39,453 bases of DNA, from contig JAFYQD010000004.1 of the NCBI GenBank assembly GCA_017547245.1, forward strand, positions 1-39,453, given 5' to 3'. Positions 30,703 to 33,101 of this stretch are shown here, in pieces. The stretch is from Oscillospiraceae bacterium (GTDB lineage: Bacteria > Bacillota > Clostridia > Oscillospirales > Ruminococcaceae). Position numbers and translations under genes: made by a program. The first letter of the stretch is position 1; every line of letters starts with the position of its first letter. The notes under the pieces are model-generated. The model was not told where the DNA came from, ran no database searches, and saw only the letters and a list, made by a program, of their open reading frames with translations.

Positions 30703-30981
30703 TTATGCAGCGCGCAGTGCGGGACGGGAAACAGCGGTGGCAGGATGATTTACCACATTGTTGCGGCGGCGGCGACGGGCGGCATACATGGCACGCTTTG
30801 CAGCAGCGGCAGTATTGGCTGCAGCATAGGCAAATACACCAAAGAAAGCTGCCTGAACGATCATGCGGATAAAGGTGATGTTGCCGGCTTCCCAGGCGCT
30901 CATGCTGCCCAGAACACCCAACAGAACAGACAAAACTGCGATCATATTCCAAACAAAAGCCTTAACTTTCAGATTCAACAT
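30703..30981 (-). CDS. Small two-helix membrane protein, unknown function
   Basis: I do not recognise this 92-residue protein. It has two hydrophobic segments, about residues 8-29 (with NMIAVLSVLLGVLG) and 37-60 (with IVQAAFFGVFAYAAANTAAA), and then a strongly basic stretch ARRRRR at 68-73 followed by a polar tail. This predicts a hairpin in the membrane with both ends probably inside. The ATG at 30981 has an AAGGTGA ribosome-binding site. It is divergent from an XRE-S24 repressor, and its TTTACA-N17-TAATAT promoter has a perfect operator palindrome in the spacer, so it is very likely repressed by that protein and released when the repressor cleaves itself. It could be a stress- or damage-induced membrane protein, possibly toxic; no toxin family is recognised. 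Confidence 0.72.
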   Translation of the reverse strand: MLNLKVKAFVWNMIAVLSVLLGVLGSMSAWEAGNITFIRMIVQAAFFGVFAYAAANTAAAAKRAMYAARRRRRNNVVNHPATAVSRPALRAA

Positions 30982-31025
30982 GAGATGTCACCTTCCTTTT
31001 TGTCTCTATACACGATGGTTTTGAC

Positions 31026-31141
31026 ACAACCATTTGTTTTCTGAGCTTATATTACCACAACTTTTGGTTGTTGTAAAGAGGTTTTTACAACTTTTTGGAA
31101 TATTTTTTGTTTTTCTCTTTACTTTAACCACTTTTGGTTGT
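31026..31141. promoter_or_regulatory. Four phased operator-like sites in the divergent region
   Basis: Sites share ACAAC-N5-GTTGT: A 31026-31040 (ACAACCATTTGTTTT, left half only), B 31057-31071 (ACAACTTTTGGTTGT, perfect), D 31087-31101 (ACAACTTTTTGGAAT, left half), C 31127-31141 (ACCACTTTTGGTTGT, one mismatch). Start-to-start distances are 31, 30 and 40 bp, close to 3, 3 and 4 helical turns. B fills the spacer of the minus-strand promoter and C fills the spacer of the plus-strand promoter. This is the layout expected for a dimeric repressor that binds on one face of the DNA. Confidence 0.72.
31049..31077 (-). promoter_or_regulatory. Promoter of the small membrane-protein gene
   Basis: TTTACA (31072-31077), 17 bp, TAATAT (31049-31054) reads toward the 92-residue gene. 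Operator B (31057-31071) covers the last 15 bp of the spacer, so bound repressor would block RNA polymerase. Confidence 0.72.
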
Positions 31142-31146
31142 ATAAT
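31118..31146 (+). promoter_or_regulatory. Promoter of the S24 repressor gene
   Basis: TTTACT (31118-31123), 17 bp, TATAAT (31141-31146) reads toward the repressor gene, about 30 bp before its ATG. Operator C (31127-31141) lies in the spacer and touches the -10, which implies autorepression. Confidence 0.78.
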
Positions 31147-31176
31147 AAAAACATCTAAAACGAGGAGGCTTAAAAC

Positions 31177-31788
31177 ATGTTTACAGCAAGGCTGAAAGAA
31201 CTGCGCAAAGCCAAAAACGTTTCACAAACTTTGCTGGCCGAGGTGCTGGGTGTAAGCCAGCAGGCCGTGGGCAAGTGGGAAAGCGGACGCTCCTCCCCCG
31301 ACCCCCACACCGTGGCTGACATTGCTTCTTATTTTGGTGTAACGGCCGACTACCTGCTGGGTTGTTCGGATATGCGCCATTTTCCCCAATACGAAAATAC
31401 CACCAATGGTGCCTTTATCCCCGTTATCGGCACCGTACGCGCCGGCTATGGCGCCCTTGCCTTTGAAGATGACTATGGCAGCGAGGTTGCCGATGTCCGC
31501 CGTCCCGAAGATTACTTTTACCTGATGGTGCGCGGCGACAGCATGGAGCCCCGCATCCAAAGCGGCGATCTGGCACTGGTGCACCGTCAACCCGATGTAA
31601 ACAGCGGTGAACTGGCTGTTGTGCTGGTGGATGGCGAAGAAGGCACCCTGAAAAAGATCATCAAAAAAGACGGCATGCTGATTCTGCAGCCCTTCAACCC
31701 CGCCTACCCTGCCATGATTTATTCGGGTGAGGACCTGAACTATATCCAGATTGTGGGCAAAGTGGTTGAAACCAAAGCCCGTTGGTAA
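31177..31788 (+). CDS. XRE-family repressor with S24 (LexA-like) autocleavage domain
   Basis: This 203-residue protein has an N-terminal Cro/CI helix-turn-helix (about residues 6-62, with SQTLLAEVLGVSQQAVGKWE) and a C-terminal S24 peptidase domain. The domain shows the Ala-Gly cleavage pair A89-G90 (VRAGYG), the nucleophile S122 in RGDSMEPRI and the general base K159 in EGTLKKI. Such proteins resemble lambda CI and cleave themselves when RecA filaments form. It is not LexA itself, whose DNA-binding domain is winged helix. No phage genes are nearby, so it seems to be a chromosomal regulator. ATG at 31177 has AGGAGG eight bases upstream. It is divergent from the small membrane-protein gene and probably controls both itself and that gene. 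Confidence 0.92.
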   Translation: MFTARLKELRKAKNVSQTLLAEVLGVSQQAVGKWESGRSSPDPHTVADIASYFGVTADYLLGCSDMRHFPQYENTTNGAFIPVIGTVRAGYGALAFEDDYGSEVADVRRPEDYFYLMVRGDSMEPRIQSGDLALVHRQPDVNSGELAVVLVDGEEGTLKKIIKKDGMLILQPFNPAYPAMIYSGEDLNYIQIVGKVVETKARW

Positions 31789-32480: not shown

Positions 32481-32939
32481 TTATTCTTCGCTTTGCAAAA
32501 TGGTCTTCAGTTCGGAAAGGAAGGAATTGATGTCCTTGAACTGGCGGTAAACCGAGGCAAAGCGCACATAGGCTACCTGATCGATGTTTTTCAGCTTTTC
32601 CATGGCATATTCGCCGATTTCGGTGGAAGGCACTTCCCTTTCCAGCGAATTCTGCAGGGAAGTTTCGATTTCTGCCACAGCGTTTTCCAGTGTGGAAAGC
32701 GAAACGGGACGTTTTTCACAGGATTTCAGCATACCCGAAAGCAGCTTGGCGCGGTCAAAGGCCTCGCGGGAGCCATCACGCTTGATGACCATCAAGGGGG
32801 TGGTTTCAACCACTTCATAGGTGGTAAAGCGCTTTTCACAGGTAAGGCATTCACGGCGGCGGCGGATGCGCTCGCCTTCATCGGTGGGACGGGAATCGAT
32901 TACTTTGCTGTCGGCACTGCCGCAAAACGGACATCTCAT
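32481..32939 (-). CDS. nrdR: Transcriptional repressor NrdR
   Basis: NrdR senses ATP and dATP and represses ribonucleotide reductase genes. The 152-residue protein has the N-terminal zinc ribbon (C3, C6, C31, C34), the following [17 protein letters not shown] stretch and an ATP-cone domain at about residues 46-136 ([20 protein letters not shown]). ATG at 32939 follows an AGGAGGATGAGTAT stretch. A NrdR-box-like palindrome covers the -35 of its own promoter, so it is probably autoregulated. No nrd structural gene is in the window. Confidence 0.96.
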
Positions 32940-32987: not shown

Positions 32988-33070
32988 ATCATAGCAAAAA
33001 AACATTAATACCACAAGTAGTTGTGGTGAAATAGTACGAAAAAAGGTATTATTGCACAACTACTTTGGTC
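32988..33070 (-). promoter_or_regulatory. nrdR promoter with two NrdR-box-like sites
   Basis: TTGTGG (33011-33016), 17 bp, TATGAT (32988-32993) reads toward nrdR. Box 1, ACCACAAGTAGTTGTGGT (33010-33027), is a perfect 7-bp palindrome over the -35 and fits the known CwA-N4-TwG core of NrdR boxes. Box 2 (33053-33070) is an imperfect copy, matching 12 of 18 bases of the box 1 reverse complement, with its centre 43 bp upstream, about four helical turns. Confidence 0.68.
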
Positions 33071-33101
33071 TATATGTTCCCTAATGAAGAAAATACGATA
33101 T

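Follow-up and report, generated by a model that had tools for sequence, protein, structure and literature searches.

The window, i.e. the whole analysed stretch of 39,453 nucleotides, carries an XRE-S24 repressor gene and, divergent from it, a gene for a small membrane protein, with 195 bp between the two starts. Both ORFs were recovered at the coordinates claimed for them in a first-pass annotation of this DNA. They are listed in Table 1 together with the putative operators and the promoter elements of the locus. Family scans identified purE, purC, purF, a KpsF-like SIS protein and nrdR as neighbours of the pair, and the setting looks chromosomal. The genome assembly is 1.23 Mb in size and 56% complete.

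Table 1. Genes, putative operators and promoter elements of the divergent locus, in window coordinates
Feature	Position	Strand	Remarks
Small membrane protein gene	30703..30981	-	92 aa; two hydrophobic segments, Arg-rich tail, C-terminal LRAA
Operator O1 (putative) ACAACCATTTGTTTT	31026..31040		1 mismatch; within small-gene leader
Small-gene -10 TAATAT	31049..31054	-	by eye; 17-bp spacer
Operator O2 (putative) ACAACTTTTGGTTGT	31057..31071		exact; in spacer of small-gene promoter; counterpart in relatives
Small-gene -35 TTTACA	31072..31077	-	by eye
O3	31087..31101		ACAAC half site only, 3 mismatches over the dyad; read directly
Repressor -35 TTTACT	31118..31123	+	by eye
Operator O4 (putative) ACCACTTTTGGTTGT	31127..31141		1 mismatch; in spacer of repressor promoter; counterpart in relatives
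Repressor -10 TATAAT	31141..31146	+	by eye; 17-bp spacer
XRE-S24 repressor gene	31177..31788	+	203 aa; cleavage site A89-G90, catalytic S122 and K159

The repressor contained the domains HTH_3 (64.5 bits) and Peptidase_S24 (87.4 bits). The residues A89, G90, S122 and K159 were invariant across 18 aligned orthologs, so that the cleavage and catalytic residues are intact as first described. A profile search against solved structures matched LexA over the catalytic part and lambda CI over nearly the whole protein, while the P22 C2 and 434 repressors matched the DNA-binding part. The protein is not a canonical LexA: HTH_3 was listed instead of PF01726, and the score with TIGR00498 was 62 bits at a cut-off of 110.95. 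A phage-type HTH with an S24 domain, an Ala-Gly site, a Ser-Lys dyad and a palindromic (putative) operator in the own promoter are the features of the S24-family LexA substitutes, and all of them were present here.

A site of the type ACAAC-N5-GTTGT had been claimed for the 17-bp spacer of both promoters, and this was confirmed (O2 exact, O4 with one mismatch); likewise, the starts of the four sites are 31, 30 and 40 bp apart as reported before. Within the window alone, dyads with up to two mismatches were no commoner than expected by chance (16 seen, 16.75 expected), and the weight of the operator claim therefore lies on the relatives. A scan of the whole window genome, 56% complete, for further sites yielded a single exact dyad, which is the one at the repressor/small-gene locus.

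In total, 162 relatives were confirmed by a scan of the collection and the best 80 were kept. Of these, 79 had enough upstream DNA and were analysed together with the window as 80 loci. The kept relatives span Faecalibacterium, Gemmiger, Subdoligranulum, Fournierella, Anaerofilum, Anaerotruncus, Ruthenibacterium, Marasmitruncus and further kin, and in named isolates across many genera the unit was chromosomal. Orthologs of the repressor with at least 55% identity were present in 18 of 149 genomes, the own genome included. In the 220 bp preceding the repressor gene, 65 of the 80 loci had an exact ACAAC-N5-GTTGT, compared with 0.1 expected from dinucleotide shuffles, and sites with at most one mismatch numbered 189 (2.7 expected, same loci, length and shuffles). 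The centres of the dyads varied, with 105 kinds among 175 sites. Loose pattern matches placed an operator inside the small-gene promoter in 52 of 72 loci and inside that of the repressor in 54. The pattern ACNNCN5GTTGTATAAT had eight matches in 20 genomes, seven of them at the repressor's own locus.

The divergent small gene adjoined the repressor in 72 of the 80 loci. The proposed pairing was thereby upheld for the large majority of the relatives, but the small gene was missing next door in seven loci, namely six of the F. prausnitzii group and L101, and was split off in an eighth (L054). Absence here refers to the adjoining position only, with starts 70-420 bp away, and 2.5 kb were read in most cases; small ORFs of L101 and L078 were excluded as spurious. 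In L054 an insertion splits the pair, and the small gene and two sites remain. A transposase gene, presumably IS110-like, lies about 0.3-1.5 kb upstream of the repressor in this locus and cuts it off from its usual operators.

The genes kpsF and nrdR were located near the repressor in one of the 80 loci (L038) and purE/C/F in none, whereby the flank lengths vary. Repressor and small gene thus travel as a pair while their surroundings change. Clusters of the type lexA-divS-nrdR exist and had prompted the idea of a functional link to nrdR, which was rejected, nrdR being nearby in this one locus only. In the window, a palindrome is located at 33010-33027 between nrdR (32481-32939, minus strand) and an ORF at 33084; we take this sequence, ACCACAAGTAGTTGTGGT, to be perhaps an NrdR box rather than an operator of the XRE-S24 repressor. 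In four loci (L018, L019, L021 and L023) a gene resembling rSAM_link_UDG by eye follows directly after the repressor in convergent orientation.

The four sites had further been described as lying near whole helical turns. This was not conserved: among 104 spacings in 72 loci the commonest were 34, 73 and 50 bp, and the mean resultant at 10.5 bp was 0.29. Of the first-pass interpretation, a compact chromosomal switch whose immediate output would be an uncharacterised membrane protein was retained, with predicted autorepression, and the phasing was given up.

The small proteins of the 72 loci were 79-104 residues long, and the copy in the window shared only 14-34% identity with 35 aligned relatives. 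A direct sequence search with the window protein found it in only five other genomes of 149, and the family was therefore recognised by place and shape. Two hydrophobic segments were present in 68 of 72 proteins according to a crude hydropathy rule. The N-terminus was positive in 68, the loop not positive in 68 and the tail positive in 66 of the 72; the topology as a whole rests on hydropathy. The window protein matched no NCBIfam model, and a Pfam scan of 36 of the 72 proteins returned no convincing family and no holin. Alanine was the C-terminal residue in 67 of 72 proteins. An -AA end occurred in 48 of 72, compared with 5 of 633 other long ORFs in these loci. When free at the C-terminus, -AA is similar to the ssrA tag which is read by ClpXP, and such a tail, located inside the cell, would make the small protein short-lived.

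To place the repressor within the SOS response, canonical LexA was searched for by its DNA-binding domain PF01726. Among 149 relatives, the window genome included, 102 had a match and 96 a match above the cut-off. The LexA of the window genome, which had been missed before, is canonical, intact and above the curated cut-off. From the best 80 relatives 50 repressor-bearing genomes were taken before results were available, mainly on contig size. Thirteen of them had a PF01726 match, ten over the cut-off. Five carried a clear LexA (E below 1e-11), one a diverged LexA-like protein, and in 44 none was detected by this one DNA-binding model, which diverged forms can escape, as G156 illustrates. All 44 belong to one derived clade comprising Faecalibacterium, Gemmiger, Fournierella and others.

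Marginal PF01726 matches were read in eight genomes and six of the proteins were scanned. The protein of G156 was a diverged LexA-like S24 protein (99 bits at a lexA cut-off of 111), and this genome was counted outside the LexA-less set; the others were MarR-type or unrelated regulators. The G156 protein (L362, 655-1302) has an IclR-type HTH and Cys-Gly at the expected cleavage site, and neither recA nor uvrB of this genome carries the dyad.

The gene recA was found in 46 of the 50 repressor-bearing genomes. An exact dyad was present in the recA promoter of 32 of the 40 genomes in which recA was found and LexA was not detected. These dyads fell into 18 kinds of centre and were followed by promoter-like spacing in 30 of the 32. 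None was found in the five LexA-plus genomes or in G156; instead, two LexA-plus genomes carried GAAC-N4-GTTC at recA. The remaining eight of the 40 genomes lacked an exact recA dyad, with one mismatch in G194 and no site in G166 and G164. Of the repressor genomes outside the 50, G054, G033 and G020 were without an exact recA dyad and G022 had one. None of 19 relatives without an ortholog of the repressor, for which the recA locus was obtained, had the dyad at recA. In the recA promoters of G162, G173 and G152 (L206, L207 and L208) the dyad is part of a palindrome of about 33 bp which could fold as a hairpin.

At uvrB, which was not found in four of the 50 genomes, a site with at most one mismatch was present in 24 of 40 genomes without detected LexA (nine exact) and in none of the five LexA-plus genomes or G156; 0.15 such sites were expected by chance over all 46 genomes. 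All six genomes of the F. prausnitzii group, in which the small gene was not found next door, had an exact recA dyad together with a uvrB site. In a subclade of metagenome-assembled genomes (G184, G185, G188 and G189) exact dyads preceded rSAM_link_UDG in four of four and radA in three of four genomes; one protein each was confirmed by NCBIfam and the rest were recognised by eye. This rSAM_link_UDG is the same gene as the one beside the repressor in the four loci mentioned above. The occurrence of the same dyad before recA, uvrB, radA and rSAM_link_UDG in relatives without detected LexA lends indirect support to a damage-triggered reading of the switch.

In these relatives the dyad of the repressor thus lies at SOS genes and canonical LexA was not detected, which are further features of the S24 substitutes; neither applies to the window genome (56% complete). 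Its recA lacks the ACAAC-N5-GTTGT dyad, and the recA genes of the window genome and of its nearest relative carry a LexA-type box, AATATATGTTCG. Given this box and the intact LexA, we regard the unit as a side branch in the window organism. Sites at core SOS genes, and with them support for an SOS role of the repressor, occur in the sister clade only. It is a guess that annotation pipelines may label the repressor as LexA-family, which could have hidden the replacement of LexA.

Genome-wide, 170 exact dyads were counted in 52 genomes, compared with 104 for the reversed pattern. Of the 170, 59 were near the repressor, 33 at recA (32 from the set of 50 genomes and that of G022), nine at uvrB, four at rSAM_link_UDG and three at radA, with 62 left. 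The 59 lie up to 2 kb upstream of the repressor and include G022 and G033; the one in L042 lies beyond the small gene. The 62 leftover sites were not above the background given by the reversed pattern, and a wide exact-dyad regulon in all genomes was rejected. Sixty of the regions around exact dyads were retrieved for reading. Beside a gyrB-like gene (L290) and folA/SLOG-like genes (L298, L299) the sites were single or paired, too few for a claim. In L276, L277, L285, L286, L291 and L295 exact dyads lay beside genes of phage-like appearance, judged by eye (some terminase-small-like, others for a recurrent MTYxEKI protein), as though the SOS box of the host served prophages as well. Two genomes of a ruminant-type subclade encode a second XRE-S24 repressor whose gene is preceded by an exact dyad, in L306 (2044-2646, family-scanned) and in L309.

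A tree of 84 repressors, built by maximum likelihood, placed the window sequence and six other LexA-plus sequences outside one clade of 74 sequences (support 100/99). L038 was counted as LexA-plus here, being the contig of G001. For 45 of the 74 clade members LexA had been searched for: none had a clear one and one (L115, G156) the diverged form. The root of this tree rests on very long outgroup branches. The simplest order of events, a reading and not a proof, begins with the unit, followed by the loss of LexA and the appearance of the dyad in SOS promoters.

According to a more far-reaching reading, the Faecalibacterium-Gemmiger lineage exchanged its SOS master regulator, and the unit captured recA, uvrB, radA and rSAM_link_UDG after the loss of LexA. 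Stages before, during and after the exchange would survive in living species, the unit still accompanying LexA in the genus of the window and in Anaerotruncus, taken as the ancestral state, and the small proteins would be a new family of SOS-induced brakes cleared via a conserved C-terminal -AA. We consider the arguments for and against this reading to be evenly balanced.

For the unit itself we infer the following mechanism. The repressor would bind ACAAC-N5-GTTGT in the -35/-10 spacers of its own and the small-gene promoter and thereby keep both genes low. RecA filaments on damaged DNA would trigger self-cleavage of the repressor at A89-G90, by which both genes would be released. The small protein is predicted to form a membrane hairpin whose two ends face the cell interior, and would most likely be a division brake of short lifetime which is removed by way of its C-terminal -AA. 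Its gene would occupy the place beside the repressor that yneA or sosA occupies beside lexA. In the sister clade, to which Faecalibacterium, Gemmiger and Fournierella belong among others, the repressor appears to control recA and uvrB, and in one subclade radA and rSAM_link_UDG as well. The division brake is favoured because the -AA end resembles the ssrA tag and because of the parallel to the C-terminal turnover of SosA; taken alone, this part has about an even chance. The explanation as a whole, i.e. a self-contained damage unit which is a side branch in the window organism and the SOS repressor in the sister clade, with the small protein as division brake, we regard as probable.

The main rival to the division brake is a membrane toxin, holin-like or TisB-like, which would lyse or depolarise the cell after damage without any pause in division, the unit being a domesticated prophage immunity region. 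Class II holins have two TM segments, both ends inside and a basic tail, and the two hydrophobic segments and basic tail of the small protein agree with this shape. The phage-type HTH, the CI/C2-like structure matches of the repressor and tblastn matches in 989 phage records point in the same direction. The flanking genes, however, are those of purine and sugar-phosphate functions and nrdR, the unit is chromosomal in named isolates of many genera, Pfam detected no holin, and true phage repressors were at most 37% identical. The sole match of 57% came from an unannotated 4.6-kb faecal fragment filed as 'Bacteriophage sp.' (MT839076.1, 309-929), which is possibly a chromosomal fragment misfiled as phage. 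We therefore judge such an origin and action unlikely, and it would leave the place of the regulator at recA and uvrB unaffected.

Two further alternatives concern the regulator. The dyads at recA and uvrB might be bound by another protein, either another S24 repressor or an undetected LexA, so that the repressor would control only its own pair everywhere. Further S24 proteins do occur in several genomes, in one subclade (L306, L309) an exact dyad precedes the second XRE-S24 gene, and one of the 50 genomes has the diverged LexA-like protein. That genome, G156, has the dyad at neither recA nor uvrB, though; moreover, the dyad is the predicted autoregulatory site of the repressor in the same genomes, and 0 of the 19 relatives without ortholog have it at recA. 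This makes another binder very improbable. A switch answering other stress such as heat or envelope stress, by RecA-independent cleavage or by proteolysis, with a small protein that protects or signals at the membrane, also appears improbable to us. It would fit the description of HdiR, which responds to heat as well, and S24 proteins are also found in other roles (PMC8565304), IrvR being a further example; yet the putative operators at recA, uvrB, radA and rSAM_link_UDG in the relatives point to DNA damage.

The preferred reading, a damage unit with an SOS role in the sister clade, would name candidates for the SOS regulator and the SOS box of Faecalibacterium and its kin, which are abundant human gut bacteria. 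In the open-access literature on LexA or SOS in Faecalibacterium or Ruminococcaceae, no study of the candidate regulator was among the matches listed. The relatives would furthermore constitute a comparative series for the change of hands of a global regulon, an idea advanced from Francisella (PMC13148647). Prediction of prophage induction and of drug-driven mutation in Faecalibacterium-type commensals would be aided, and small membrane proteins of an unknown family, whose role is open to testing, are added.

The arrangement resembles lexA-sosA and lexA-yneA of Staphylococcus and Bacillus, where a gene for a small, fast-evolving membrane protein is divergent from that of the SOS repressor (PMC6851548). 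In S. aureus sosA is divergent from lexA, and the C-terminus of SosA appears to direct turnover by CtpA (PMC6851548). The small gene shares with this type its divergence from the repressor and the repressor's putative operator (72 of 80 loci). In contrast to YneA and SosA, which have one TM segment and an outer C-terminal part, the small proteins have two hydrophobic segments (68 of 72) and a positive tail (66 of 72) which is predicted to lie inside and ends in -AA, and they are without Pfam match. Moreover, the repressor of those systems is LexA, which the XRE-S24 repressor is not.

By its sequence features the repressor would work in the manner of the S24-type substitutes for LexA, namely HdiR, FddR and the repressors of Bacteroidetes. 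HdiR of the Streptococcaceae is such a substitute in a LexA-less Gram-positive family and controls cinA-recA in S. thermophilus; it differs in that it is said to control mainly umuC-type genes and to cluster with Streptococcus phage repressors, the comparison being one by description only (PMC8565304). The non-canonical LexA repressors of Bacteroidetes likewise combine a phage-type HTH with an S24 domain, replace LexA and control SOS genes. Their operators are GGA-N5-TCC and another, they are described as exclusive to Bacteroidetes, and the available text does not mention a small-membrane-gene partner (PMC8565304).

Nearest in layout is FddR of Francisella, a phage-type S24 repressor with a palindromic operator, whose gene and a divergent one of unknown function together make up a self-contained unit (PMC13148647). 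According to the same text FddR differs by its operator, GTG-N11-CAC, by its lineage and by recA being outside its control. Its authors argue there that divergent units of this self-contained kind may be the material from which SOS networks are rebuilt, and FddR is regarded as able to seed a new one. Among the relatives of the XRE-S24 repressor, by contrast, the unit accompanies LexA in some lineages, and in others its dyad is found at recA and uvrB.
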